From NCBI GenBank assembly GCA_016790165.1, contig JAEUPL010000015.1, forward strand, positions 1 through 39,188: DNA of 39,188 nucleotides, given 5' to 3'. The translations under genes and the position numbers were made by a program. Shown here one piece after another: positions 3,511 through 39,162 of this stretch (its first letter is position 1; each line of letters begins with the position of its first letter). Below the pieces are notes generated by a model that was not told the DNA's origin, ran no database searches, and saw only the letters and a list, made by a program, of their open reading frames with translations. This stretch comes from Burkholderiales bacterium. GTDB taxonomy: Bacteria > Pseudomonadota > Gammaproteobacteria > Burkholderiales > Casimicrobiaceae.

Positions 3511-4290
3511 TCAAGGCGCCAGCCAGACAAATGCCGCCATGCGTCCCGTCACGCGGTCGCGGCGGTGCGAGAAAAACCGGGTGGCGTCGCTGTAAGTACA
3601 TGCGCCACTCGCGGCGACACGCGTGACACCGGCACGGGCCAGACGCTGCCGGGCGATCGCCGGCAAGTCGCATAGAAACTTGCCCGGTGTCGAGCGCGCC
3701 AGAAAGTGCTGCGCCGCGCCGGCGTCGCCGCTGACGAATGCCTCGCGAACATCGTCCCCGACCTCGAACGCTGCCGGGCCGATGCACGGCCCGAGCCAGG
3801 CGCTCACTCGCGCCGGATCGACCGCCATGCGCTGCAGTGTGTTTTCGATCACACCCGCCACCATCCCGCGCCAACCCGCGTGCGCGGCGCCGACGCAACA
3901 CCCGTCGTCGTCCGCGAAAAGCACGGGCATGCAATCAGCTACCTTGATGCCGCACACCATGCCCGCGGTGCGGCAGACGATGGCGTCGCCCTCAATACCG
4001 GTCGCACCGAGCGGCGTGTTTGAGGGCAGTGATTCGGCCGCCTGCACACCGGCGCCGTGCACCTGATACACCCAGCGCAACGCGTCGGCCCCAACGCCAA
4101 GTGCGGCAGCAGTGATCCTTTCGTTCTCGGCCACGTCCTCGCGGCGGTCGGCGGTGGCATAGCCGAGGTTCAAGCCGTCAAACGGCGCTCTGCTCACCCC
4201 GCCCTGCCGCGTGGTGATTGCCGCCTGAACGCATGCTGGCGCCGACCATACAGGTCGGATGAAACCGGGCAACACGTTATTCGCGGACAT
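3511..4290 (-). CDS. pgeF: Peptidoglycan editing factor PgeF (YfiH / DUF152, laccase-domain fold)
   Basis: A 259-residue cytosolic protein of the YfiH family. Family members have been called polyphenol oxidases or purine nucleoside hydrolases, and in E. coli the protein prevents misincorporation of L-Ser in place of L-Ala in peptidoglycan precursors. The metal and active-site residues are visible: His78 in VYQVHG, Cys120 in VADCMPV, His137 in AAHAGWRG, plus the GPCIGP loop and the C-terminal FFSHRRD motif. Length matches the family. The start codon lies 14 bases inside the end of rluD, so the two are translationally coupled. rluD-pgeF is a conserved pair, also seen in E. coli, which supports the call. 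Confidence 0.95.
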   Translation of the reverse strand: MSANNVLPGFIRPVWSAPACVQAAITTRQGGVSRAPFDGLNLGYATADRREDVAENERITAAALGVGADALRWVYQVHGAGVQAAESLPSNTPLGATGIEGDAIVCRTAGMVCGIKVADCMPVLFADDDGCCVGAAHAGWRGMVAGVIENTLQRMAVDPARVSAWLGPCIGPAAFEVGDDVREAFVSGDAGAAQHFLARSTPGKFLCDLPAIARQRLARAGVTRVAASGACTYSDATRFFSHRRDRVTGRMAAFVWLAP

Positions 4291-5488: not shown

Positions 5489-6286
5489 ATGCGCTTTACC
5501 GCGAAAGTACAAACGTTTTTTCTCATGCTGGCAGCCAGCGTGCTCCTGTCCGGCTGCGGCTGGTTCAGTGGCATGTTCGCCAAGACGGAAGATCCGCAGA
5601 AGATGGCCGTCGAAGGATTGTATCGACGCGCAAAGGACGAGCTGAATTCGGGCAACTACGCTGCGGCCATCAAGTTGTACGAAACGCTGGAGTCTCGCTA
5701 TCCGTATGGCGTGCAGTCGCAGCAGGCAATTCTCGATACGGCCTACGCTCAATACAAGCTGGGCGAGCGGACGCAAGCCATCGCGGCTGCGGACCGCTTC
5801 ATCAAGCTCTACCCGAATCACGAGAACGTTGATTACGCCTACTACATCAAAGGCCTCTCCAACTTCATCGAAGACCTTGGTTTGCTCTCATTCTTTGCGA
5901 CGCAAGACTTGTCTGAACGCGACCAAAAATCTGCGCGTGAGGCGTACACCACGTTCAAGACGTTGACTGAAAAATTCCCGCAAAGCCGCTACCACGCTGA
6001 TTCGTTGCTTCGACTGCGGTACCTGGTGAATGCCTTGTCGCAGAATGAAGCCCACGTGGCGCGCTACTACTTCAACCGGGGCGCCTATCAGGCCGCCATC
6101 AACCGCGCACAGAGCTGCATCACCAATTTCCCGAACACCCCCGCCAACGAAGAAGCCCTGCGCATCATGGTGCAAAGCTACCGTGCGATGGGCAACACCC
6201 AACTCGCGGGCGATGCGGAACGCATTTACAAGGCGACCTACGCGCAGGCCGCGTCCAGCGAGCGACCCTGGTGGAAGTTCTGGTGA
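5489..6286 (+). CDS. bamD: Outer membrane assembly lipoprotein BamD (ComL/YfiO)
   Basis: A 265-residue lipoprotein of the BAM complex, which inserts beta-barrel proteins into the outer membrane. The signal peptide ends in the lipobox LLSG with Cys23 as the lipidation site. After it come tetratricopeptide-like helical repeats, including SGNYAAAIKLYETLESRYPYG and LGERTQAIAAADRFIKLYP, typical of BamD. Position 24 is Gly, not Asp, consistent with outer-membrane sorting under the E. coli Lol rule. The start at 5489 gives the signal peptide directly and has AAGGAA just upstream; an ORF-extending ATG at 5357 would put 44 residues ahead of the signal peptide. Divergence from rluD is a conserved arrangement. 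Confidence 0.95.
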   Translation: MRFTAKVQTFFLMLAASVLLSGCGWFSGMFAKTEDPQKMAVEGLYRRAKDELNSGNYAAAIKLYETLESRYPYGVQSQQAILDTAYAQYKLGERTQAIAAADRFIKLYPNHENVDYAYYIKGLSNFIEDLGLLSFFATQDLSERDQKSAREAYTTFKTLTEKFPQSRYHADSLLRLRYLVNALSQNEAHVARYYFNRGAYQAAINRAQSCITNFPNTPANEEALRIMVQSYRAMGNTQLAGDAERIYKATYAQAASSERPWWKFW

Positions 6287-6299
6287 GTCTTGGCGCCGG

Positions 6300-8243
6300 T
6301 TAGGCGTCAACGCGTCCGCTGGATGCGAAGAACACCGCCACGTCCGATAGCGCACGAGTAAACGGCATCGGTGGAAGGCTGGCACGCAGCACGCGACCAT
6401 AGCCCTTGCTGACCAGGCGGTCATCGCAGATGGCCAGGACGCCGCGGTCGCTTTCTGACCGGATCAACCGCCCCGCCCCCTGTTTGAGCGAAATGGCGGC
6501 CTGCGGCACCTGCCAGTCCATAAATGGGCTGCCGCCTTGTTCCTCGAGGTACTTCATGCGCGCTGCGAGCACCGGGTCATCCGGCGGCGCAAACGGAAGC
6601 TTGTCAATCACGACCAGCGACAGGGCATCCCCGGCCACGTCAACGCCCTCCCAGAAACTCTGTGAGCCGATCAGAACCGCGTTACCAAGCGTGCGGAAGC
6701 GCCGCAGGAGCTCGCCCTTTGGCGCGTCGTTCTGGGTCAGCACGGGAAATTCGAGATCACGCTCACGCAACTTTTGCGGGAACACCTCTGCGCATTGCCG
6801 TAAGGCGCGCAAGCTGGTGAATAGCAGGAACGCTCGCCCACCCGACAACGCCACCAGTTCAAGCGCCGCATCGATCACGGCTTGGGTATGCGTCGGTGAA
6901 TTGGGCGGAGGCAGCCCCTGTGGCACATAGATGCGCCCGGCATTGGCGTAGTCAAACGGGCTGGGCCAGGATTTGGCGGGCGCCGCATCGAGTCCGAGCT
7001 GGCGAGCGAACAACGAAAAGTCGCCACCCGCCGAGAGAGTCGCGCTGGTGAATATCCAGCTCCGCGCCGTACCCACAGTCTCCTTGCGAAAGACATCGGC
7101 TACCGACAGCGGCGTCGCGTGCAACTGCCAGCCGTTCGCCGAGATATCGGCCCAGCGGATGAGGTCACCGCGCGAATCGTCGCGCCAGGCGGAAAGCCGC
7201 TCCGCAAGGGCACGGGTTCGCTTCAGCAAACCTGGCATCTCCTCGCTGCGCTCGGCCTGCGACTCAATGCCGTCCGCGAGTGTCGAGAGTTCGTCAATCA
7301 GTCGATCCAGCGCGTCCACGAATTCGCGGCGTGAACGCGTGTCGTCCCGCACGATTTTGGCGCTGCCCAAATCGAACCCGAGCCGTACGGCGCGCGCCGC
7401 CATACCCACGGCCAATGCACTGTCGAGCAGATCGGAGGCCTCGCGCGCAACGCGTCGCTGTTCCAGTTCAACATCGCGCGCCAGCTCCGTGACCTGCAGC
7501 ATGCTGGTCGATTCGCCGAAAAACACCGTGGCCACGTCCGGCGCGCGGTGGGCCTCGTCAATAATGACCGTGTTGCACGCGGGCAGTAACTCCCCCAAGC
7601 CATCGTCCTTGAGTGCAATGTCAGCAAAGAGCAGATGGTGATTCACGACGACAACGTCGGCCGTCAGGGCCTCGCGCCGCGCCTTCATCACGAAGCACTC
7701 CTTGTAGTGGCCGCACTCGCTGCCGAGGCAGTTGTCCCGCGTCGATGTAACCAGCGGCCACACGGGTGAGGATTCCGGGACCGTTTCGCAGTCGGCCCGA
7801 TCTCCGGTGTTGCTGCGTTCGGCAAAGGCGCCAATGCGTTGCACGTGGGCAATGTGTTCGCGCGCGGTGAAACGCCCTTCGCTGCGCGTGCGTGCAAGAT
7901 GGTAATGGCACACGTAGTTGGTGCGCCCTTTGAGCAACGCGGCTTCGATGGGCAGTTTGAGTGCGTCACGAACGCGCGGTAGGTCGCGATCAAAAAGCTG
8001 ATCCTGCAGCGTCTTGGTGCCCGTCGCGATGATGACTTTGCCGCCCGATAGCAGCGCAGGTACCAGGTACGCAAAGGTTTTGCCGGTCCCAGTCCCTGCC
8101 TCGGCCAGTAGCTGACCGTTGCTGGTTATCGCTTCGGCAATCGCCTCCGCAAGCTCAATTTGCTGCGGTCGCGCACGGAAATTGGGCAAAGCCTGCGCCA
8201 GCGCGCCGTCGGGGCCGAAGATGCGCGCCAGATCGGATGTCAT
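6300..8243 (-). CDS. DinG/YoaA-family ATP-dependent DNA helicase (Fe-S, XPD-like)
   Basis: A 647-residue superfamily 2 helicase with 5-prime to 3-prime polarity in characterised relatives, acting on forked or R-loop DNA. Walker A is AGTGTGKT at 49-56 and motif II is DEAH at 229-232. Four cysteines (112, 172, 177, 183) lie between them at the place where XPD/DinG proteins bind a 4Fe-4S cluster. The C-terminal helicase half includes FTSLRAL, IGSQSFWEGVD and the QGAGRLIRSESDRG motif VI. There is no extra exonuclease domain, and the length is close to YoaA. Its stop is 13 bases from the bamD stop (convergent). I see no LexA box in the 125 bases upstream, unlike E. coli dinG. Confidence 0.92.
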   Translation of the reverse strand: MTSDLARIFGPDGALAQALPNFRARPQQIELAEAIAEAITSNGQLLAEAGTGTGKTFAYLVPALLSGGKVIIATGTKTLQDQLFDRDLPRVRDALKLPIEAALLKGRTNYVCHYHLARTRSEGRFTAREHIAHVQRIGAFAERSNTGDRADCETVPESSPVWPLVTSTRDNCLGSECGHYKECFVMKARREALTADVVVVNHHLLFADIALKDDGLGELLPACNTVIIDEAHRAPDVATVFFGESTSMLQVTELARDVELEQRRVAREASDLLDSALAVGMAARAVRLGFDLGSAKIVRDDTRSRREFVDALDRLIDELSTLADGIESQAERSEEMPGLLKRTRALAERLSAWRDDSRGDLIRWADISANGWQLHATPLSVADVFRKETVGTARSWIFTSATLSAGGDFSLFARQLGLDAAPAKSWPSPFDYANAGRIYVPQGLPPPNSPTHTQAVIDAALELVALSGGRAFLLFTSLRALRQCAEVFPQKLRERDLEFPVLTQNDAPKGELLRRFRTLGNAVLIGSQSFWEGVDVAGDALSLVVIDKLPFAPPDDPVLAARMKYLEEQGGSPFMDWQVPQAAISLKQGAGRLIRSESDRGVLAICDDRLVSKGYGRVLRASLPPMPFTRALSDVAVFFASSGRVDA

Positions 8244-29403: not shown

Positions 29404-29434
29404 GTATTGCGCCAGACGTCGGAAAATCCTGTCC
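29404..29434 (+). promoter_or_regulatory. Candidate autoregulatory promoter of the sigma factor (variant of the shared element)
   Basis: GTATTGC (29404-29410), a 16-base spacer and TCCTGTCC (29427-29434) resemble the element found upstream of four genes downstream. It differs by two bases in the first block and by one extra spacer base; the CTGTC core is kept. It ends 24 bases before the sigma factor ATG. Weaker than the other four copies. Confidence 0.4.
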
Positions 29435-29458
29435 GTCGTCCCGCTATGCTTCCGGGCG

Positions 29459-30073
29459 ATGACTGATCCCACGCGCGCCCCCGCTCCTCCGCCGGCCAAC
29501 GACATTCGCGACGACAGCGATGCCGTCCTCTCCGCGCGCTGCAATCGCGGTGATGCGGCCGCATGGGAGACGCTGGTACAGCGCTACCAGCGGCTCGTGT
29601 ACACCATCGTCCGCCGCGTCGGGCTCGACGAACACATGGCAGCCGACGTGTTCCAGACTGTGTTCATGCGCCTCATGGAGCATCTGCCGCGGCTCACGCA
29701 GCAAGACCGCCTGCAAGCCTGGATCGTTACCACTGCCAAGCGCGAAGCCCTGCTGCAGCGCTCTCGCGGCCTGCGCACGGTCTCGATCAGCGCCGACGAT
29801 GACGACGGCGGCAGCGCCGCGCTCGACATTGCCGATGACGCGCCGTTGCCGGAAGACACTCTGGCCGAAGTGCAAACGCATCATCAGGTGCGTCTCGCGC
29901 TCGACCGGCTCGACGCGCGCTGCCGCGACCTGCTTAGCCTGCTTTACCGAGACGTGGACGAGCCGGTCAGCTACGACGACATCGCCGCCACACTGGGCAT
30001 GCCACTCGGCAGCATCGGCCCCACGCGCTCGCGCTGCCTGGGCAAGTTGCGCACGCTGATGGAGCAGGCATGA
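29459..30073 (+). CDS. ECF-type sigma-70 family RNA polymerase sigma factor
   Basis: A 204-residue two-domain sigma factor. Region 2 spans about residues 25-95 (LVQRYQRLVYTIVRRVGLDEHMAADVFQTVFMRLMEHL) and region 4 about 135-200 (YDDIAATLGMPLGSIGPTRSRCLGKLRTLM, the helix-turn-helix for the -35 element). There is no sigma 1.1 or region 3, and no extra C-terminal domain. No membrane anti-sigma factor with a zinc-binding HRV-type domain is adjacent; the next gene encodes a soluble 199-residue protein. Four downstream genes carry a shared two-block promoter-like motif and are its likely targets. ATG at 29459 is preferred over 29402, which would run the coding region over the candidate promoter. 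Confidence 0.9.
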   Translation: MTDPTRAPAPPPANDIRDDSDAVLSARCNRGDAAAWETLVQRYQRLVYTIVRRVGLDEHMAADVFQTVFMRLMEHLPRLTQQDRLQAWIVTTAKREALLQRSRGLRTVSISADDDDGGSAALDIADDAPLPEDTLAEVQTHHQVRLALDRLDARCRDLLSLLYRDVDEPVSYDDIAATLGMPLGSIGPTRSRCLGKLRTLMEQA

Positions 30074-30123
30074 AGCGCCCGCCCGGCACCGCCATCGGGC
30101 GCGCGGCCATCGTCGCCAGGGAT

Positions 30124-30153
30124 GTATTTTGTCGCCGGGTCGCGACTCTGTTG
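30124..30153 (+). promoter_or_regulatory. Shared ECF-type promoter, copy 1 (before the 199-residue gene)
   Basis: GTATTTT (30124-30130), 15 bases, CTCTGTTG (30146-30153). It ends 26 bases before the ATG at 30180 and lies wholly in the gap after the sigma gene. The two blocks and the spacing are the same as at 34047, 35835 and 37574, with one C-to-T change in the second block. Confidence 0.75.
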
Positions 30154-30179
30154 CGACAACCCTCAGGAGCACCCGCGCC

Positions 30180-30779
30180 ATGAACCTGCCCCCGAACCCA
30201 AGCACCGCGCCGATGCCGACGCTCAGCGATGCCGACGCGCTGGGCCGCGCCATCGGCGGCGCCTTGCGGCTGGAAGACGCACCTGCGGCCGCGATCACGG
30301 CAGCCGTCGGCTTGTGGCCCAGCCAGGCCAGCGTGCAGGCCGCCGCCGCGGCACCCGGCAGCACGCTCATCGGCAGCCTGCAAAGCGCGGTCAAACGGAT
30401 TCAGGCGGTGCTGACCTTCGATAGCTGGGCCACGACGCCTGCGGCGCTCGGCCTGCGCTCGGCGGGGCTATCGCGGCAATCGCGGCATCTCATGTTCAGC
30501 GCCGAAGGCCACGACATCGACCTGCGCATCGCCGGCAGCAACGATAGCTACGTCCTCGCCGGACAAATGCTCGGCCCGGACCACCACGGCCCGGTCTCCA
30601 TCACCGTCAACACCGCCGCCAACGACGACGACCACGCCACCGAGCCGCACCGGCAGGCCGAACTGGATGAACTGGGCAGTTTCGAGCTCGACGCCGTGCG
30701 CGCCGGGACATACTGGATGACGGTGCGCATGGGCCACGACGTAGTGGAATTACCGCCGATTGAGGTGGGGCAGCGGTAG
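30180..30779 (+). CDS. Uncharacterised 199-residue protein next to the sigma factor (possible sigma partner)
   Basis: I do not recognise a named family. The first 75 residues are helical and Ala-rich (DADALGRAIGGALRLED). The second half looks beta-sandwich-like (LMFSAEGHDIDLRIAG, LAGQMLGPDHHGPVSI, ELDELGSFELDAVRAGTYWM), resembling carboxypeptidase-regulatory or CnaB-type domains. There is no signal peptide, transmembrane segment or zinc motif. The start at 30180 has CAGGAG just upstream. It lies 106 bases after the sigma factor on the same strand and has the shared promoter directly upstream. Position between sigma factor and CHAT protease makes a regulatory partner or protease substrate plausible, but that is inference only. 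Confidence 0.75.
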   Translation: MNLPPNPSTAPMPTLSDADALGRAIGGALRLEDAPAAAITAAVGLWPSQASVQAAAAAPGSTLIGSLQSAVKRIQAVLTFDSWATTPAALGLRSAGLSRQSRHLMFSAEGHDIDLRIAGSNDSYVLAGQMLGPDHHGPVSITVNTAANDDDHATEPHRQAELDELGSFELDAVRAGTYWMTVRMGHDVVELPPIEVGQR

Positions 30780-30796
30780 CCCGCGTTACGAACGCA

Positions 30797-30820
30797 ACAA
30801 AAAACCCGCCGCAGCGGGTT
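30797..30820 (-). terminator. Intrinsic terminator of the 51-residue peptide gene
   Basis: On the minus strand a 7-bp stem (AACCCGC / GCGGGTT, 30803-30820) with a four-base loop runs into six T residues (A run at 30799-30804 on plus). It sits 24 bases past the stop of the small minus-strand gene. On the plus strand there is no T run after the stem, so it is unlikely to stop the 199-residue gene. Confidence 0.85.
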
Positions 30821-30844
30821 GGTGGCCGGTTTGGTCGAAGTGGT

Positions 30845-31000
30845 TTAGACGGTCCAAGCGTGATTGCGAGGCTCAGGGGCGTCGCCACCACCGATCTGAT
30901 CCAGCACCGAAGCATCCAGCTCGATCAACTGCTCGCTTTGCGGCGCTTCGTGCCGAGTTGATGCGTCGCGTTGCAGCAGGCGTTTGAATGATTGAATCAT
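30845..31000 (-). CDS. 51-residue peptide with a double-glycine-leader-like motif
   Basis: A small gene supported by a ribosome site and a terminator. GGAG lies six bases before the ATG at 31000, and a good intrinsic terminator follows the stop. The peptide begins MIQSFKRLLQRD and has a charged N-region. It then carries LIELDASVLDQIGGG, close to the LxxxELxxIxGG pattern that ends the leaders of class II bacteriocins and other exported or modified peptides. After the glycines come 12 residues (DAPEPRNHAWTV). No peptidase-ABC transporter or modification enzyme is visible in the window. It lies antiparallel between the 199-residue gene and the CHAT protease. An ATG at 31084 would extend it to 79 residues, but has no such ribosome site. 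It could also be a regulatory peptide or protease substrate. Confidence 0.62.
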   Translation of the reverse strand: MIQSFKRLLQRDASTRHEAPQSEQLIELDASVLDQIGGGDAPEPRNHAWTV

Positions 31001-31049
31001 GGGTCTCTCCACAAAAACGCCAGCGCTCGGCGCCGTGAGGCGGGTGTGG

Positions 31050-31078
31050 TTGCTAGCGTCACCACGGCCCAATACTAT
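31050..31078 (+). promoter_or_regulatory. Candidate sigma-70 promoter of the CHAT gene
   Basis: TTGCTA (31050-31055), 17-base spacer, TACTAT (31073-31078); each hexamer matches consensus at four of six positions. It lies about 70 bases before the CHAT start. The shared ECF element seen before the neighbouring genes is absent here, so the protease may be made independently of the sigma factor. Confidence 0.45.
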
Positions 31079-31147
31079 CGCCAAGCGGCGCGCCAGTCAA
31101 AGCCACGCTGCCCGCGCGGGCCGATCTTGCCGCGGCAAAATAGGCGG

Positions 31148-33991
31148 ATGACCGATGGTTCGTCCGCCCACTCATTCGATGCTAAGATCCTCGCGCAAGC
31201 GCTGGCCAGCGGCAACGGCTCGCTCCCGACTGACATCTCAGCAAACCAGCGAGAAGCGCTCGCCTGGGAGCTAAAAGACGCCGCCCTGGCGTGCTGGAGC
31301 ACGAACCCCACACAGGTCTCGTCGATTGCCGCAGCGTTGCAGCAGCTGCTCGCGCTCGACGATAACACGCCGGCCAGTCCGATCCCTGCGCTGCGCGACA
31401 GTGTCGCGGCATACGAAGCGATCGCAGCAGGCCGGATGACGGAGGCCGACACGTTGTTGCAGCAGGCGGCCGGCAAGTTCCGCGCACTCGGACTGGCGTC
31501 TGCCGCCGCGCAAACGCAGGTGCCACGTGTGCTGGTGCTCTGCATGCAGGGCAGGCTTGACGATGCGGAGCGGTGCGGTATTGCCGCGCGTGATGAACTC
31601 CTCGCGCTGGGAGACACCCACGCGGCTAGTCGGGTGAGTTTGAATCTTGGGCAGTTGAGCTGCGAGCGTTCACACTTTGGCGTCGCAGTCACACACTTTG
31701 AGTCCGCGATCGCCGGGTTTCGCCACGCCGATGATCGAGAGCGCGCAGCGCAGAGCAGCATCGGACTCGCTGACGCGCTAGCAGCAACTGGCGAGTTCGA
31801 AGCTGCACTGCAGCATTACGCAGAGGCTCGCGGAGAAAGAAGTACTGGCAGTTGGCCAGTGCTTGCCGCGCTATGCGACGAGTCAGCGGCACTGATTCGA
31901 CTGGCCCGAGGCGAATATGCGCCCGCGCTGGCGGGGCTCGAAGAGGCACGGCGCCAATACCAACAGCTCCAGATGCCACAGCATCTCGCCAACGCCGAGC
32001 GTCAACTTGGTCAGGTATACCTTGAGTTGCATCTGTTGCCAGAGGCAATCGCCCTGCTTCAGAACACGATCGATCGATTCATGTCGCTCGAAATGCATCT
32101 CGAAGCCGCATGGACGCGGGTTGAGCTCGCGAACGCGATCGCCCGGCAGCACGCGGAGGATCCGCGCGTTGATACTGTGCTTTCGCAAGCGGAGCACGTC
32201 TTCGTAGCCGAAGCGCAGGTGGCTGGCCAAGCGACGGTCGCGCTGGCACGTGCTGAGCAAGCCACGAACCTGGGACAAGTCGATCGTGCGCTTAAACTCG
32301 CCTCTGGCGCAGAAGCGACGTTTCGTCGGCTAGATATGCCAGCAAGCGCGATTCGCGCCGCGTTGCTCGTAGCTGAGTGCGCCGGCGCGCGTAACGGCGC
32401 AATTGATGCGCGCGACACGTTTTCTCACCTGCTTTCCAGCGCACATTCCAGAGGCCTTCTGTCAATTGAATTGCGTGCGTTGTTGCAATTGGGCTACTTG
32501 GCATGCGGCGAACGCGACTACGACCTCGCCAAATCTCACTTCGAACGCGCCGTCGCGCTCGTGGAGGAACAACGCTTCCGCTTGGTCGGCGACGATTTGC
32601 GCTACGCCTTCCAGAATTCCACCGTAGCTCCGTACCGCGAGCTGCTGCGATTGGCGCTTGGCGCCGATGGCGAACAAAGTAACACGTTCGCGATAGTTCT
32701 GGCGCTAGAGCGCTTTCGCGCGCGCGCGCTCGCGGACCGGCTGGGCAGCGTAGCCACTGTCCAGGGTGGCACCAACGCGCGACTTGACGAGCTGCACCAC
32801 CGACTTTCATGGTCGCAGCGCCGGTTGCGCCGACTGCATGAGGAGGGTGAGGATACCGGAGTTGCAGATGCCGAGCTCCGCCAGCTTGAAAATGAGTATC
32901 TCGAGGTACAGCGACGATCTCGGCTCGTTTTGCACGAACGGGGTGCAAAGCCTGCAGCGACCAACATTGATCATCGGATGCTGACCGCTCTGCAGGAGGC
33001 GCTCCGGGAAGCCGCAGCAGTCGTCGAGTACGGCGTCCTTGATGACGAGCTGTTCGCTTGCATCGTGGACGGCCAATCTGTTCGCGTCGTGCGTCACATT
33101 GCGCTTTGGAGCGACGTGGAGGGAGCCATCCGTCGCGTGCAGTTTCAGATGGACGCGATGCGCACCAGCCGGTTGTTGCCGCAGCAACATGTGCGGCAAC
33201 TGGAAGCCCGCGCCCGGCATGCATTGCAGCAATTGCACGCTATGATCTGGGCTCCTCTCACGGCCACGCTGGGCGAAGCCAAACGCCTGTTGGTGGTACC
33301 GCACAGCAAGCTTGGGGCCATCGCCTTTGCTGCGCTGCATGACGGCAATGGCTACCTCGGCGAAAACGCGGAGATCGCCATCGCCCCGAGTCTCGCCGTC
33401 GCGGCCCAGGTGCTCGCCCGCCGTGCACCTACCATCGCAGCCCCGCTGGTGCTGGCGGATACAAAACGTCTGGCGCACGCCATCGCGGAGGCGGACGCCG
33501 TGCAGGAAATCTTTCCGCGAGCCCAGGTCCGCACGCGTGACGACGCCAGCGGCGACGCGTTGCGGCAGTTGGGCCGGACGGCTGAGTGCATCCATTTCGC
33601 CTGCCACGGCGTGTTTCGCTCGGACAACCCCATGTTCTCCGCGCTGGAGCTGGCCGATGGCAATTTTTCTGCGATCGACGCCGAGAAGCTCAACCTGACC
33701 AACCCACTAGTGGTGCTCAGCGCCTGCGATAGCGGCGTTGCGACCGAGGCCGAAGGCGATGAAGTGTTCGGCCTGGTCCGCGCCTTTCTGATAGGCGGCG
33801 CCTCGCGCGTCGTGGCGAGCCTGTGGCCGGTGGATGATGATACGACGGTCGAGTGGATGAAAGTGTTCTATCGATCCCTGCAGGCCGGAGCAGCGCCCGC
33901 GCAGGCGGGACTGCAGGCGCAGCAGGCCGTACGTGAGCAGCATCCGCACCCGTTTCATTGGGCCGCGTTCGTGACCTTTGGCGCCTGGTAG
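31148..33991 (+). CDS. TPR-CHAT domain protein (caspase-like cysteine protease)
   Basis: A 947-residue soluble protein with TPR-like helical repeats from about 60 to 490 (for example FGVAVTHFESAIAGFRHADD and FEAALQHYAEARGE), a coiled helical linker, and a C-terminal CHAT domain from about 650. The caspase-type dyad is intact: His820 in IHFACHGVF and Cys860 in VVLSACDSG. CHAT is the caspase HetF-associated clan CD fold; TPR-CHAT proteins include Csx29 of the type III-E CRISPR Craspase. There is no signal peptide. ATG at 31148 has only a weak ribosome site, but the reading frame upstream of it looks noncoding. The gene sits between the peptide gene (divergent) and a secreted subtilase (108 bases downstream, own promoter). 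Confidence 0.92.
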   Translation: MTDGSSAHSFDAKILAQALASGNGSLPTDISANQREALAWELKDAALACWSTNPTQVSSIAAALQQLLALDDNTPASPIPALRDSVAAYEAIAAGRMTEADTLLQQAAGKFRALGLASAAAQTQVPRVLVLCMQGRLDDAERCGIAARDELLALGDTHAASRVSLNLGQLSCERSHFGVAVTHFESAIAGFRHADDRERAAQSSIGLADALAATGEFEAALQHYAEARGERSTGSWPVLAALCDESAALIRLARGEYAPALAGLEEARRQYQQLQMPQHLANAERQLGQVYLELHLLPEAIALLQNTIDRFMSLEMHLEAAWTRVELANAIARQHAEDPRVDTVLSQAEHVFVAEAQVAGQATVALARAEQATNLGQVDRALKLASGAEATFRRLDMPASAIRAALLVAECAGARNGAIDARDTFSHLLSSAHSRGLLSIELRALLQLGYLACGERDYDLAKSHFERAVALVEEQRFRLVGDDLRYAFQNSTVAPYRELLRLALGADGEQSNTFAIVLALERFRARALADRLGSVATVQGGTNARLDELHHRLSWSQRRLRRLHEEGEDTGVADAELRQLENEYLEVQRRSRLVLHERGAKPAATNIDHRMLTALQEALREAAAVVEYGVLDDELFACIVDGQSVRVVRHIALWSDVEGAIRRVQFQMDAMRTSRLLPQQHVRQLEARARHALQQLHAMIWAPLTATLGEAKRLLVVPHSKLGAIAFAALHDGNGYLGENAEIAIAPSLAVAAQVLARRAPTIAAPLVLADTKRLAHAIAEADAVQEIFPRAQVRTRDDASGDALRQLGRTAECIHFACHGVFRSDNPMFSALELADGNFSAIDAEKLNLTNPLVVLSACDSGVATEAEGDEVFGLVRAFLIGGASRVVASLWPVDDDTTVEWMKVFYRSLQAGAAPAQAGLQAQQAVREQHPHPFHWAAFVTFGAW

Positions 33992-34046
33992 TCAACCGGG
34001 CTTGGCACCCGAAATGGTTCGAATGCGAACAATTTGCCCGTTTGGT

Positions 34047-34076
34047 GTATTTTCGTGGCTCGCACCTGCTCTGTCG
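34047..34076 (+). promoter_or_regulatory. Shared ECF-type promoter, copy 2 (before the subtilase)
   Basis: GTATTTT (34047-34053), 15 bases, CTCTGTCG (34069-34076). It ends 23 bases before the ATG at 34100. Its position rules out the in-frame ATG at 34034 as the main start. Confidence 0.8.
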
Positions 34077-34099
34077 GACATTTCCCCGGTCGAAATCCC

Positions 34100-35614
34100 A
34101 TGCCCATGATCCGCCCCTGGATGACGTTCAGCCCGTCAAGTCTGCGCCGCATAGGCCGCGCGTTGGTCGCCGGGATCATCTGCGCGATTTCGTCGCCGGC
34201 GACTGGCGCCGACTTCAAACCCGACGAAATTGTTGTCAAGCTAAGGACGACGACTGCCCTACCCGCGATCCAGACGCAATTGAGTGTCGTACAGACGATC
34301 CAGTTCGGCAGCCGTCCCATTTACCGACTGAAATTGCCGGTCGGCAGTGACGTCAACGCTGCTGTTGCTGCCGTGACGGGCAACGCCGATGTACTGCTCG
34401 CGGAGCCGAACTACTTGGCCGACTCGCCAGAGGCTCGAAAGAACCGTGCGTGGACGCTCGGTAGCGCCTCGGCCTACGCGGCCCAATGGGCCCCGACCGC
34501 CATGCGCCTGAAAGAGGCCCACCTGTTCACCCGCGGCAACGGGGTGCGCGTCGCGGTGCTTGATACCGGCATTGACACCTCCCACCCAGCGCTCGCCGGC
34601 AAGCTGCTGCCGGGCTACGACTTCGTCGATGGGGATGCCGATCCGAGCGAGGTTGGCACGCCCTGCCCGCCGGGATCGACGACGGGTTGCAATCAGGGCT
34701 TTGGGCATGGCACGCATGTGGCGGGTTTGATTGCGCTGGCGGCGCCGAACGCGAAGATCGTGCCGTACCGGGTGCTTGACCCGGACGGCGTGGGCAATGT
34801 CTGGGTGCTGGCCGAGGCGCTGCAGAAGGCGATCGACCCCGACGGCAACCCGGCCACAGACGACGGCGCGCATGTGATCAACCTGAGCCTCGGGACACCG
34901 CTGCGCATGAAAGTGCTCACCTCAATTGCCAAGCTCTTCACCTGCGAGCCGCCGGACGACGCTGATCCGCTGCTGAATTTCTCGCACAGCGGCTACGACG
35001 ACGACAAAGCGCGCTGCGCTGCGGGGATCGCGCCGGTGATTGTGGCAGCCGCGGGCAACCTGGGGCCGGGCGATTCGCCGGCTAAAGAGTACCCGGCGGC
35101 GGAAAGCGTGTACGGCCTGCTCGCCGTTGCCGCGAGCGACAGCACCAAGCACCTCGCCTCATTCAGCAACAGTGGCTCGTGGGTTGGCGTGGCGGCGCCG
35201 GGGGACGCCATCACCAGCGCGATGCCCACGGCCGCGTCCGCCAATGGCTACGCGACCTGGAGCGGCACGTCGATGGCGGCGCCGCTGGTGGCGGGTACGG
35301 CGGCGCTGCTTCGCGCGGCGCAGCCGGAGCTCACGCCCAAGGACGTGACGCGCAAAATTGCGCGCACTGCCACGGCGCTGACCGGCACCAACATCCCGCA
35401 GGTCGACGCTGCGGCGGTGGTGGAGACCTGCTCGATGGACGTCGATGGTGACGGTCAGGTGTTGCCCACCACCGACGGCCTGATCATCATGCGCGCGATG
35501 ATGGGCATGAAAGACGCTGCCGTGAGCAGCGCGGCATCGCCGACCGCCGCCCGAAGCACGTGGGACAGCCTGCGCAATTACCTGAAAAACGTTTGCTTGA
35601 TGAATCTGCCGTGA
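34100..35614 (+). CDS. Secreted S8 family serine peptidase (subtilase) with dockerin-like tail
   Basis: A 504-residue exported protease. The signal peptide ends near ATGA (residue about 37), and a short propeptide-like region begins DEIVVKL, as in fervidolysin-type subtilases. The catalytic triad is Asp155 (VLDTGID), His203 (GHGTHVAG) and Ser391 (GTSMAAP). An insert with Cys-rich loops (TPCPPGSTTGCNQG, TCEPPDDADP) may form disulfides. The C-terminal 60 residues contain DVDGDGQVLPTTDGLIIMR, a dockerin/EF-hand-type calcium loop. The start is placed at 34100 because the shared promoter lies just upstream; ATG 34106 is equally possible. It is the second gene of the presumed sigma regulon. Confidence 0.92.
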   Translation: MPMIRPWMTFSPSSLRRIGRALVAGIICAISSPATGADFKPDEIVVKLRTTTALPAIQTQLSVVQTIQFGSRPIYRLKLPVGSDVNAAVAAVTGNADVLLAEPNYLADSPEARKNRAWTLGSASAYAAQWAPTAMRLKEAHLFTRGNGVRVAVLDTGIDTSHPALAGKLLPGYDFVDGDADPSEVGTPCPPGSTTGCNQGFGHGTHVAGLIALAAPNAKIVPYRVLDPDGVGNVWVLAEALQKAIDPDGNPATDDGAHVINLSLGTPLRMKVLTSIAKLFTCEPPDDADPLLNFSHSGYDDDKARCAAGIAPVIVAAAGNLGPGDSPAKEYPAAESVYGLLAVAASDSTKHLASFSNSGSWVGVAAPGDAITSAMPTAASANGYATWSGTSMAAPLVAGTAALLRAAQPELTPKDVTRKIARTATALTGTNIPQVDAAAVVETCSMDVDGDGQVLPTTDGLIIMRAMMGMKDAAVSSAASPTAARSTWDSLRNYLKNVCLMNLP

Positions 35615-35834
35615 CTGTAGGACGTTCGCCGACCGGCGGACTGACACACGCGCACGGAAGAAGGCCACCGCTCGGACGCGGCGTCAGGGCATAGTTTCAG
35701 CTTTTTAGGTCTACCCACTGACCCACTGTGCTTTCAGGCTGTTTTTGCGGCCAGTCGACTTTCGATTTTTTGTCGCCGTTTGTGGCGTGTAGCAGTCATT
35801 GCACCGAAAAAGCTATACGGCGAAATATGACAAT
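35615..35834 (+). other. Noncoding gap after the subtilase
   Basis: The gap to the next start codon is 309 bases, and the last 90 hold a promoter and leader. A GC-rich hairpin (35624-35641, 7-8 bp, tight loop) lies ten bases after the subtilase stop, without a U tract. The rest is AT-richer with short T runs, and no reading frame with a ribosome site is evident. Confidence 0.5.
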
Positions 35835-35864
35835 GTATTTTCACCGGTGACCGGCGCTCTGTCG
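35835..35864 (+). promoter_or_regulatory. Shared ECF-type promoter, copy 3 (before the InlB-repeat protein)
   Basis: GTATTTT (35835-35841), 15 bases, CTCTGTCG (35857-35864), about 60 bases before the ATG at 35924. Upstream it also shares ATGACAAY with copy 4, so the conserved element reads ATGACAAYGTATTTY there. Confidence 0.8.
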
Positions 35865-35923
35865 GGTACGACCCAGCCGACTCACGCGGCCGAGGGTCTC
35901 CCTTCGACAACCGCAGGAGCCCC

Positions 35924-37438
35924 ATGAATTTTCTTCTCCGACATCCACTTGCTGCCGCCGCATTGGGCGGCCTCGCCCTCGCCGCCAGCGTTGGCGCACA
36001 GGCACAGACGGCGACCATCTACGGCTCGCTCGGCAACTTCGACGTCGTGAACAACACCGGGCAAAACGCCTGCGGCTTCGAGGTAGAGCTCGAGGGCGTT
36101 GCACCGACCGCCATCCCGTCCACCTTCACCGTGCAGCGCTACGGCGTACCGACGATCAGCGCTTACACAGCGGGCACGGTATCGGGCGCCCGCGTGCGTT
36201 GGGAAAGTCGCGACTGCAGCTTGACCAAAACCGTCCCCCACGCACCGGGCACCGGGTTCGCTGGCACCTGCTACCAGTGGAACACGGCGACCTACGACAA
36301 CGCCGGCTGCGAACATTTCGGCGTGCATTACTATGGCGCCGCCAGTCGGGTCACCTCACGCTGGCTGGTGGCAGACCCGGCCAATCCGGGGGCCAACGTC
36401 CCGCACGACCCGCCGATGCCGATCGCGTGGCCGAACTACACCATCCAGCCGCCCGTGGCGGTCAACGTCGCGCCGGTCGTCGTCGCGGAGGTGCAGGCGC
36501 CGGAGCCACCCGAAGCGCCGGAACGCTACGGCAACGCGCAATGGATGAAAGTGTTCGTCCGGCAGTTGCCAAACACGGTGACGCTGGACGCACTGATCAC
36601 CGAAAACCCGACCACCGTGCCGATGGATCCGGCGCTGCTCGAGGTGCAATGGGACGTCATCCAGGCCGAGCCTCTCTCTGGCAGCAACGGGCGGCAACAA
36701 CGCAACCGCAAGACCGGTTCGACCAACCTCGACCCCACCACGCGCACGGTGGTGCGCCGCTATGAGCTGTACGACTACACCGGCGCCGTAGACCCCGTGA
36801 CGAACGAGGCGCTCTGCGCGGATCTCACGTGCAGTGCCCCACAAGTGGGTGAAATCGGAGACTTCGTCAGTGCACAAATGACTGCCGTCGAGGTGCAGGG
36901 CGACAATCTCACGGTGAAGTCTGCAGGCACAGGCAGCGGACGGGTAGAAAGCGCAGACAAGGTCATTTCCTGCGGCAGCAAGTGCGTGTCGGCTTACACC
37001 GCAGGCACGGCGGTCACACTCACCGCCAAAGCTGACAGCGGCAGCAGTTTCGCCGGTTGGAGCGGCGCGTGCAGTGGCACGCAGTCCATCTGCGCGGTCA
37101 CCGTGCGTGGAGCGGTCCTCGCCACGGCCAACTGGACGCAAGCGGCGACCGGTGGAGGCGGCGGGGGCGGCGGGGGCGGCGGTGGCAATGGCAACCAGGG
37201 CGTCACGGTCAAAGTCACCACCAGTAACTCGGGCACCGTCACCAGCAGCGTCGGGGGTATCAACTGCGGGTCTGTGTGTCAGGCGAACTACGCGGCTGGC
37301 AGCAGCGTGACGTTGACTGCATCCCCTGCCGCTGGCAAGGCGTTCCTGGGTTGGTCGGGCGCCTGCACCGGAACGGGCACGACGTGCACGTTGACGGTCA
37401 ACGCGAATCTCTCCGCAAAAGCGAACTTCAGCAAGTAA
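35924..37438 (+). CDS. Secreted protein with two InlB-type B repeats
   Basis: A 504-residue exported protein. The signal peptide ends at AQA (residue 27). Residues 28-325 form a Cys-containing region I do not recognise (NACGFEVELEGVAPTAIP, GTCYQWNTATYDNAGCEHFG). Two divergent InlB B-repeat units follow at about 330-404 and 427-504, each with ISCGSKC/INCGSVC, the AGTAVTLTA-type strand and FAGWSGAC/FLGWSGAC. They are joined by a run of about twelve glycines. The paired cysteines suggest disulfides in each repeat. No sortase, PEP-CTERM or autotransporter signal is visible. CAGGAG precedes the ATG. It belongs to the presumed sigma regulon by its promoter. Confidence 0.82.
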   Translation: MNFLLRHPLAAAALGGLALAASVGAQAQTATIYGSLGNFDVVNNTGQNACGFEVELEGVAPTAIPSTFTVQRYGVPTISAYTAGTVSGARVRWESRDCSLTKTVPHAPGTGFAGTCYQWNTATYDNAGCEHFGVHYYGAASRVTSRWLVADPANPGANVPHDPPMPIAWPNYTIQPPVAVNVAPVVVAEVQAPEPPEAPERYGNAQWMKVFVRQLPNTVTLDALITENPTTVPMDPALLEVQWDVIQAEPLSGSNGRQQRNRKTGSTNLDPTTRTVVRRYELYDYTGAVDPVTNEALCADLTCSAPQVGEIGDFVSAQMTAVEVQGDNLTVKSAGTGSGRVESADKVISCGSKCVSAYTAGTAVTLTAKADSGSSFAGWSGACSGTQSICAVTVRGAVLATANWTQAATGGGGGGGGGGGGNGNQGVTVKVTTSNSGTVTSSVGGINCGSVCQANYAAGSSVTLTASPAAGKAFLGWSGACTGTGTTCTLTVNANLSAKANFSK

Positions 37439-37455
37439 TTCCTGCACGACGTGGC

Positions 37456-37491
37456 TGCAGCCGACGGGCGCCGAAACGCGTGTCGGCTGCA
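37456..37491 (+). terminator. Long perfect hairpin after the InlB-repeat gene, possible terminator
   Basis: TGCAGCCGAC (37456-37465) pairs exactly with GTCGGCTGCA (37482-37491) around a 16-base loop, 18 bases after the stop codon. It is followed by TTGCATTGTG, only mildly T-rich. It may stop transcription or protect the 3-prime end. Confidence 0.5.
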
Positions 37492-37573
37492 TTGCATTGT
37501 GCACCGCGCGGACCCTGTCGCGTGGGACGGCGCGTGCGTTCGTGGCCCCGCCAAAAAAATTGTCCATGACAAC

Positions 37574-37603
37574 GTATTTCCTGGCGTCCAACCCGCTCTG
37601 TCG
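37574..37603 (+). promoter_or_regulatory. Shared ECF-type promoter, copy 4 (before the DUF5648/DUF5666 protein)
   Basis: GTATTTC (37574-37580), 15 bases, CTCTGTCG (37596-37603), about 77 bases before the ATG at 37681. The ATGACAAC just upstream is shared with copy 3. Confidence 0.78.
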
Positions 37604-37680: not shown

Positions 37681-39162
37681 ATGCGACTATTGCCTACATC
37701 CATCCCTTCCGCGCTCAAAGCCTCGCTTGGCGCTGCAATCGCTTTGTGCGGCACCGCCCCGGCGCTTGGCGCGACGCCACCAGACATGACGGTGATGGAG
37801 TTCTTCCACGCCCCGACCGGGCATTACTTCATGACCGGGTCCGCTGACGATCAGCGCGTACTGACCACCGCACCGGCAAACCAATCTTTCCTGCCCACCG
37901 GACGCAGCTTCGCCGCGTGGTCAGACAGCAACAAAAATCGCCCGGCCAACGCCGTCGCCGTGCAGCGCTTCTTCAACCCGGCCACGGCGTCGCACGTCTT
38001 TACCGCAAACGCCTCAGACATCGCACTGCTGCGCAACCTGCCGCTCGCGAGCAACCCCAAAGGCTTCAGCGACGAAGGCGTTGCGTTCTTTGCCCTCGCG
38101 CCAACCTCGGGCCGCTGCGAAGCGGGTGCGCGACCGGTATTTCGCGGTTTCAATAACCGGGCCGATGGCAACCATCGTTTCAGCAACGAACTTGAGTTGC
38201 ACGCAGCGACGGTGCGCACCGGTTTTTCCGACGACGGCGTCGCGTTCTGCTCCACAGCCGTGGGCAGTGACGTTGCGGTCGAGAAGCGCGCTGGTACGCC
38301 ACGCCCGACGGGCGAGGATGTGACGGTCAGCGGCAACGTCAGCAACTTTGTATCGGTGTCGTCGTTCAACGTCGGGACGCAGGCGGTAGACGCTTCACAG
38401 GCCCGGTTTGAAGGTGGCACCAGCGCGGCGCTGACCAACGGTGTGGCCGCGAGTGTAGAAGGCGTGCTGGTCAACGGCACGCTGAAGGCGACGGAGGTTC
38501 GTCTGTCGCTCGGCAACTCACCGGCGGTAGGTGTGGATGAGTTGCACGGATTCGTCACGGCTTTAGGCACGGCGGGCAGCTTGTTTGTCAACGGCACCGC
38601 TGTTGACATTTCGCGGGCGACGATCACGGGCGGGACCGTGGCACAAATCGTCGTCGGCGCCGAGCTGGAAGTCCACGGTGCATTCATTGATGGTGTGTTC
38701 GTCGCCAACACCGTTCAGATTGAGGATGCGCCGAGCAGCAACGCGAACGCTGTGGTGACGGGTTCGTCGGAGATCGACGGAACCATTTCGCTGTTCACCA
38801 GTGTCAGCAACTTTACGATCTCCAATCAGCGAATCGACGCCAGCAACGCGGTGTTTGAAGATGGCGTTGCCGCCGATCTCGCCGTGGGCATTCGTGCCGA
38901 AGTGCATGGTCGTGTGGCGAGCGGAGTGCTGATCGCCGATCGCGTCGAATTCAAGCGCACACGAACCACGGCGTCTGGCAGCAGCGGCTCGAACGGAAGC
39001 GGCAACGGCAATGGCAACAGCAACTCGACGGGGACGGCGTTTGAAGCCTGGACTGACCCCGATTTCACGGACACTACGTGTTTGAAGAAATTGAAGGAGT
39101 CAGGGAATGGGTGGAAGGACAAAGCCGCCGTACGCGGAGGCGTTTCGGCAGCAGATAGTTGA
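37681..39162 (+). pseudogene. Secreted DUF5648 / triple DUF5666 protein, 3-prime end replaced by IS3 sequence
   Basis: The open frame is 493 codons, but only the first 456 are native. A signal peptide ends at residue 30 (APALGA). Residues about 38-190 match the DUF5648 type (EFFHAPTGHYFMTGS, RFFNPATASHVFTANASD, repeated GFSDEGVAFF/GFSDDGVAFC). Three DUF5666 units follow at about 212-277, 286-349 and 361-426, each with the SNF-x-(V/I)-x-x-x-x-(V/I)DAS and AEVHG patterns. A Ser/Gly/Asn-rich linker (430-452) follows. From codon 457 (position 39049) the frame runs into the tip of an IS3-family element and stops at 39160-39162, giving a 37-residue foreign tail. The linker suggests that at least one more domain was lost or lies beyond the IS. 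Function unknown; probably surface or envelope. Confidence 0.78.

Follow-up and report, generated by a model that had tools for sequence, protein, structure and literature searches.

A conserved two-block element, probably the cognate promoter of an ECF sigma factor encoded beside a TPR-CHAT protease

Introduction

The promoters of extracytoplasmic function (ECF) sigma factors are marked, in the passages of PMC8103513 that treat them, by AAC in the -35 element, CGT in the -10 element and autoregulation, and the -35 elements GGAACTT and ATTGAAACCTTT are given there for promoters of E. coli sigma-E and SigW. Here we analyse a stretch of 39,188 nucleotides from a Burkholderiales bacterium (GenBank assembly GCA_016790165.1), called the window throughout, in which an ECF sigma factor gene is followed by four copies of a two-block element, GTATTTY-N15-CTCTGTYG, that is probably the promoter read by this sigma factor. 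The element resembles the sigma-E and SigW promoters in its overall -35/-10 geometry and departs from them in a -35 block, TGTATYT, that lacks AAC, the recognition helix of the sigma factor having GSIGPTR instead. Its -10 block, TCTGT, resembles the sigma-E -10.

The closest described systems are recognised by their gene neighbourhoods. Group ECF54 of the Casas-Pastor 2021 classification has carboxypeptidase, subtilase and CHAT neighbours, and control by proteolysis has been proposed for it (PMC8999054); section 3.3 of the same source lists it as lacking an anti-sigma factor. Groups ECF270 and ECF271 have acidobacterial and chloroflexotal model members with zinc-binding anti-sigma (ZAS) proteins, as treated in the corresponding part of that source (PMC8999054). 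In type III-E CRISPR systems, as set out in the relevant section of PMC10028731, the protease Csx29 cuts Csx30, an inhibitor of an ECF sigma factor.

The window sigma factor, with a subtilase and a CHAT protein as neighbours, matches the ECF54 gene context, and CarboxypepD_reg was found weakly, below the cut-off, in 3 of 10 proteins scanned. It differs from ECF54 in that the model member described for that group is actinobacterial, whereas the element was not found in the three actinobacterial loci of our sample, and in that the passages of PMC8999054 on ECF54 describe neither a promoter nor an anti-sigma factor. With ECF270 and ECF271 it shares zinc-finger partner proteins among its acidobacterial homologues and a zinc-finger protein behind the sigma gene in the Chloroflexota loci L108, L109 and L110 (zf-HC2 at E 1.3e-8 in L108 and below the cut-off in L109, proteins whose homology to the partner is not established), but the window partner has no zinc finger and falls outside the ZAS definition. 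The locus recalls the Craspase system (Csx29, Csx30 and CASP-sigma) in bringing together a TPR-CHAT protease, a small partner and an ECF sigma factor, with sigma sites upstream of genes of the same locus; it differs in that no homology between partner and Csx30 was found (none of the nine PDB hits of the partner profile down to E 5 is named Csx30, the presence of a full Csx30 chain there being unchecked) and in that its CHAT protein scores far below the cut-off of the NCBIfam Csx29 model (37.9 bits against 300 bits). Since ECF54 and ECF270/ECF271 have already been described with such neighbours, the locus represents a known kind of system. What may be new relative to the known ECF54-like system is its promoter: the literature searched contains no description of a TGTATYT-N16-CTCTGT promoter, and a printed prediction may exist in the original ECF classification.

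Results

The sigma factor gene and the four element copies lie as follows in the window.

29459..30073, plus strand: ECF sigma factor gene, regions 2 and 4, recognition helix GSIGPTRSRCLGKL (Pfam and orthologue alignment; start codon probable)
30124..30153, plus strand: promoter element P1 (putative), GTATTTT-N15-CTCTGTTG, exact match before the partner gene, position shared by 36/37 loci
34047..34076, plus strand: promoter element P2 (putative), GTATTTT-N15-CTCTGTCG, exact match before the subtilase gene
35835..35864, plus strand: promoter element P3 (putative), GTATTTT-N15-CTCTGTCG, exact match before X1
37574..37603, plus strand: promoter element P4 (putative), GTATTTC-N15-CTCTGTCG, exact match before X2

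The four copies announced in an earlier note on this DNA were recovered as exact matches, and there is no fifth match in the window at up to three mismatches. Shuffled versions of the window gave 1.31 matches on average at that tolerance, and 5 of 100 shuffles reached four or more; the weight of the finding therefore lies in the exactness of the matches. The whole-genome scan that the note had called for (3.76 Mb) returned the four exact copies, none with one mismatch and nine with two, and the reversed pattern matched twice within two mismatches. The short core GTAT-N18-CTCTGT occurs six times in the source genome (reversed control, 0), four of these being the window sites. A fifth, GTATCT-N16-CTCTGT on contig 15, precedes a gene resembling a periplasmic binding protein (not run against Pfam), which in turn resembles, by eye and unaligned, L053 of another species; the sixth, on contig 14, lies opposite a long reading frame and is probably a chance match. 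From the end of each element to the likely start codon behind it there are 26 nt (30180), 23 nt (34100), 59 nt (35924) and 77 nt (37681).

To follow the element across species, 52 named loci were gathered in one scan with two peptide patterns from a nine-sequence sigma alignment, a procedure that may favour sigma factors with those peptides. We chose 36 records by their proteobacterial titles and analysed the remaining 16 loci separately; counts out of 37 are these 36 plus the window. Seven of the 36 records are contigs of relatives already among the 100 genomes surveyed below, L083 and L093 share an assembly, and the sources of L088 and L089 are closely related. Phylum names follow the record titles, apart from Thermoflexales (L110), Blastocatellia, Crossiella and Actinophytocola, which we placed ourselves. 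One record, L067, is titled as a Bordetella parapertussis metagenome-assembled genome, yet its near relatives are environmental Burkholderiales bins, and it is probably a misnamed bin.

Comparison of the upstream regions of orthologous loci, another check named in the note, placed GTAT-N18-CTCTGT directly behind the sigma stop codon in 36 of 37 proteobacterial loci. When gaps of 8-28 were scanned behind sigma, only a gap of 28 occurred besides 18, at one locus, and the reverse strand gave none. Across the 52 loci, GTATTTY-Nk-CTCTGT with one mismatch and k from 13 to 17 yielded 47 sites at k=15, one at 16, four at 17 and none at 13 or 14. Loci that seemed to lack the element turned out to have GTATC replacing GTATT, and because several orthologues do so the core is better written TGTATYT-N16-CTCTGT. 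Information also rises at the AT before GTAT and at a C-A 32-33 bases after the G of GTAT; this CA, 5-6 nt past the -10 (C in 25/36, A in 23/36), stands where a transcript would start, and the preference is weaker over 68 sites in L063-L103 (37 C, 32 A).

The bases between the blocks are near random: the 16-nt spacers have a mean identity of 0.36, against 0.32 expected from composition, with 6 of 630 pairs above 0.7, while identity of the core is 0.93 across sites, partly by construction, the sites having been picked by their core. Shared whole-sequence or recent descent alone therefore does not explain the match of the blocks, and the gap is fixed across genera. That four near-identical block pairs fall within 7.5 kb could suggest non-functional remnants of duplicated or mobile sequence, but with spacers that differ as composition predicts and a gap that is kept in acidobacterial loci as well, this explanation is scarcely credible.

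Beyond the Proteobacteria, the acidobacterial loci L096, L098, L099 and L101 have GTATTTT-N15-CACTGT at the same place behind sigma, and other acidobacterial variants follow after the same gap (CTCTAT in L107, CTCTAG in L102, only CTCACC in L105); L106 and L112 complete the nine acidobacterial loci examined and have no element. Among four Chloroflexota loci the element is clear only in L110 (CTCTAT); it is absent from L104 and L109, and the sole match in L108 is weak and on the other strand.

The distribution of the element follows that of the sigma factor and its partner, the gene behind P1. Among 100 genomes the partner gene was found in nine (own included), eight of them at E<1e-10, and in the loci scanned from other species the element precedes it in 7 of 8; the remaining one, the divergent locus of G032, is L100 and has the GTATCT form. 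Exact GTATTTY-N15-CTCTGTY is present in 22 copies in the eight partner-gene genomes versus 4 in the other 92 (Fisher p 2.7e-9), and the seven copies of the reversed control all fall within the 92 genomes without a clear partner gene. At E<=1e-30 the sigma alignment picks out 9 of 60 genomes, namely those eight and G032, and exact copies are present in 8/9 sigma-positive versus 0/51 sigma-negative genomes. In 12 genomes reached via the named loci, GTATTT-N16-CWCTGT has 36 matches versus 1 in the control. Two acidobacterial genomes stand out, G109 (that of L099) with 11 sites having a CTCTGT or CACTGT -10 versus 1 control, and G107 (that of L096) with 7 versus 0, so that the regulon there is perhaps larger than in Burkholderiales.

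The conservation, spacing, strand and position of the element and its co-occurrence with the sigma factor are computed observations; geometry and co-occurrence together suggest that it is a promoter which this sigma factor would read. The ECF-type promoter proposed in the note finds strong support in comparative footprinting, fixed spacing and sigma co-occurrence, and weaker support in the start-like CA. The -35 would be TGTATYT and the -10 (C)TCTGT, with 18 bases between GTAT and CTCTGT. For this reading, in which the adjacent ECF sigma factor has the element as its cognate promoter and a regulon shares it, we put the probability at roughly 0.85. Two-block sites are typical of regulators too, and the same pattern might be the operator of a separate activator or repressor, with another sigma factor transcribing the cluster. 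This we consider very unlikely, given the single orientation before the partner gene, the rigid 18-base gap that fits -35/-10 spacing, the start-like CA and the co-occurrence with sigma; nor was a regulator gene noticed in the sigma-partner-CHAT-S8 block, though none was searched for.

The sigma protein itself has Sigma70_r2 (E 7.8e-13, residues 39-98) and Sigma70_r4 (E 3.9e-6, residues 147-198) as its only Pfam families, and with regions 2 and 4 joined by a short linker it is an ECF (group IV) sigma factor by definition. Its recognition helix has GPTR in 48 of 52 loci, with exact GSIGPTR in 38 and GATR, GPSR or GRTK in the remainder, at a position where solved SigW, profile-aligned, reads GTVKTRIHRGR. 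The ECF hallmarks are absent from the element: there is no AAC in the -35 (GTATTTT or GTATTTC at the four window sites, GTATYT-like at aligned sites) and no CGT in the -10 (CTCTGT at the four window sites and in 36/37 loci). A -35 without AAC beside a different helix fits an altered ECF specificity, which these motifs suggest.

Autoregulation is likewise not apparent. GTAT-N18-CTCTGT precedes the sigma gene in 0/37 loci within 350 nt, measured from the start of the sigma match and not from a proven start codon, and when a shorter GTAT..CTGT was allowed gaps of 10-28, only 20 and 21 occurred there, in one locus each, the gap of 21 belonging to the copy in the window itself. That copy is the looser element which the note had placed before the sigma gene.

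29404..29434, plus strand: proposed looser copy before the sigma gene, rejected (not conserved, 0/37 loci)

It has 4 mismatches in 15 specified bases (counted by eye) and a 16-base spacer, and its degeneracy, different spacing and lack of conservation leave it unsupported as a promoter element.

Behind the sigma gene lie the partner and four further genes.

30180..30779, plus strand: partner gene, 199 amino acids, N-terminal helices and a C-terminal beta-rich domain, zinc finger absent (acidobacterial homologues)
31148..33991, plus strand: TPR-CHAT protease, caspase-like, His/Cys motifs intact, no element of its own (Pfam CHAT E 5.5e-57, TPR; read from 31145)
34100..35614, plus strand: S8 subtilase, N-terminal prodomain, signal-peptide-like start (Pfam Peptidase_S8 E 1.7e-44, PF22148 E 1.9e-8)
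35924..37438, plus strand: X1, signal-peptide-like start, Flg_new_2 (InlB B-like) repeats (PF18998 E 9.7e-17)
37681..39162, plus strand: X2, signal-peptide-like start, DUF5648 and DUF5666 repeats (PF18914 E 2.3e-17, PF18885 E 2.2e-11)

The window order is thus sigma, partner, TPR-CHAT, S8 subtilase, InlB-B-like repeat protein and DUF5648/DUF5666 protein. The note had named the four targets as a possible sigma partner and three exported proteins; the last three have signal-peptide-like starts as judged by eye, the subtilase also being flagged by the crude rule described below. PADLOC, run on six window proteins, recognised the subtilase alone, by a subtilase model and, weakly, by IetS. Among the 36 proteobacterial records (~479 kb), several of them truncated by contig ends, CHAT is present in 32 and S8 behind sigma in 26; 35 have the core ahead of the partner gene and 18 of 26 have it ahead of S8, and the reversed control gave 0. 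The remaining core sites in these records lie before X1 homologues (3) or an X2 homologue (1), elsewhere downstream (9) and in upstream flanks (6). Since none of 32 loci has a core upstream of CHAT, the protease is probably read from the partner promoter P1.

Sites elsewhere in the genomes often lie before genes whose products look exported. By a crude signal-peptide rule of our own, which has false positives, flags 3 of 18 partner genes and is probably wrong in flagging L143 and L056, such genes stand behind 36 of 64 sites, GTATC and CACTGT forms included. Setting aside the 18 partner sites and 4 sites in partner-negative genomes, 33 of 42 are exported-looking versus 110 of 491 background frames; 15 of the 33 are S8-, X1- or X2-type genes from the sigma factor's own cluster in different species and so non-independent, and without them the figure is 18 of 27 (hand count). 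Pfam assigned no match at E<=0.001 to 10 of 18 proteins behind sites, and matched targets include an acidobacterial Flg_new_2 protein, a PEP-CTERM protein, a MauG-like peroxidase, a lactonase-like propeller, a periplasmic binding protein and a glycosyltransferase; an X1-like protein follows the element in an acidobacterial genome (L121). The local regulon of the note holds in that neighbouring genes share the promoter, while the near-copy on contig 15 and distant sites in other genomes indicate that it is probably not purely local.

DUF5666 recurs in the surroundings of this sigma family: a DUF5666-repeat protein lies directly behind sigma in the Blastocatellia loci L105 (by eye) and L107 (Pfam), and the domain is found in the window X2 and at the end of the zinc-finger FecR proteins of L108 and L109. 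L086 apparently has a second sigma/partner-like pair at about 13.5 kb, ~8 kb behind the one at 5533-6726.

The window partner has no Pfam match. Homologues found by tblastn in the acidobacterial loci L096, L098, L099, L101 and L102 start with HxxxCxxC or a form one residue longer; Pfam reports zf-HC2 below the cut-off in L096, L098 and L099 (E 9e-4 to 2e-3), with no such hit for L101 or L102. HxxxCxxC or a close variant is present in the Chloroflexota proteins L108, L109 and L110 as well, and that of L110 looks homologous to the partner by eye. Proteobacterial partners align on both flanks of the acidobacterial finger without the finger itself, the rest of the protein being conserved, and HxxxCxxC is present in none of those read. 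The first PDB match of the acidobacterial partner model is ChrR, the anti-sigma factor of Rhodobacter sphaeroides SigE (E 7.8e-4, TM-score 0.24-0.26); this is not so for the window partner, whose fold search against PDB gave nothing at E<=0.001. The partner likely descends from a zinc anti-sigma factor.

In the protease, the His motif is kept in 44/44 rows and the Cys motif in 42/42 covered rows (duplicate contigs included), so that it has the CHAT domain and the His/Cys motifs of a Csx29-type TPR-CHAT protease. Its PDB matches are remote, to chains named 'CHAT domain protein' (E 7.2e-7) and one named Csx29 (E 2.7e-4). Between partner and protease, on the minus strand, a 51-residue frame (30848-31000) ending ...LIELDASVLDQIGGGDAPEPRNHAWTV looks like a double-glycine leader peptide, and in L064/L027 the interval from partner to CHAT holds a frame 49% identical to it (4148-4285), in that case on the strand of CHAT.

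Discussion

Our results point to an ECF sigma factor with a promoter code of its own. The sigma factor, which would itself be made from another promoter, would transcribe the partner together with the TPR-CHAT protease, probably as a single transcript, forming a feedback loop, and would separately transcribe the subtilase and other probably exported proteins, with a few targets elsewhere in the genome. Several observations weigh against this account. L083, the exception among the 37 loci, has a degenerate -10 only; related sigma factors occur without the element in L104, L106, L109, L111, L112, L113 and L114, and in L108 with just the weak match on the other strand; and in 8 of 26 loci S8 is not preceded by the exact core. 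Certain genome-wide sites, such as L150 and the second L127 site, are not followed by a gene that looks exported, and the L143 site precedes a glycosyltransferase-like gene that does not look exported. As to control of the sigma factor, the ChrR match has a low TM-score, and with its zinc finger missing the window partner is no more than a candidate anti-sigma factor.

A TPR-CHAT protease follows the partner, which makes release of the sigma factor by proteolysis plausible. By analogy, the partner would restrain the sigma factor until the CHAT protease, activated by way of its TPR repeats, cut the partner and so set the sigma factor free; such a switch we propose tentatively, at somewhat less than even odds. 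The promoter reading might also be right with a partner that is no anti-sigma factor, CHAT or the subtilase acting on the sigma factor directly, as proposed for ECF54. ECF54 is listed as having no anti-sigma factor (section 3.3 of PMC8999054), and no proteobacterial partner read has HxxxCxxC, but the zinc finger of the acidobacterial partner homologues, the ChrR match of one model and the conservation of the remaining protein argue for an anti-sigma ancestry, and we regard direct proteolysis as possible but doubtful.

A larger scheme, in which cleavage of a reduced and formerly zinc-binding anti-sigma factor by a TPR-CHAT protease frees an ECF sigma factor with its own promoter code for exported proteins, would make the locus a CRISPR-independent, phylum-spanning counterpart of Craspase. 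We think this unlikely as it stands. The locus does place a caspase-like protease near an ECF sigma factor in surroundings in which no part of a CRISPR system was noticed, although no search for one was made. If the scheme were true, type III-E CRISPR could have recruited a pre-existing cassette of protease, anti-sigma factor and sigma factor.

With the element as cognate promoter, a -35 that departs from the AAC hallmark, together with a changed recognition helix, would represent a naturally occurring example of altered ECF specificity, and the element would be a candidate for use as an orthogonal promoter. It would also provide a testable promoter, and hence a readable regulon, for a kind of sigma factor whose control by proteolysis is a proposal of PMC8999054.

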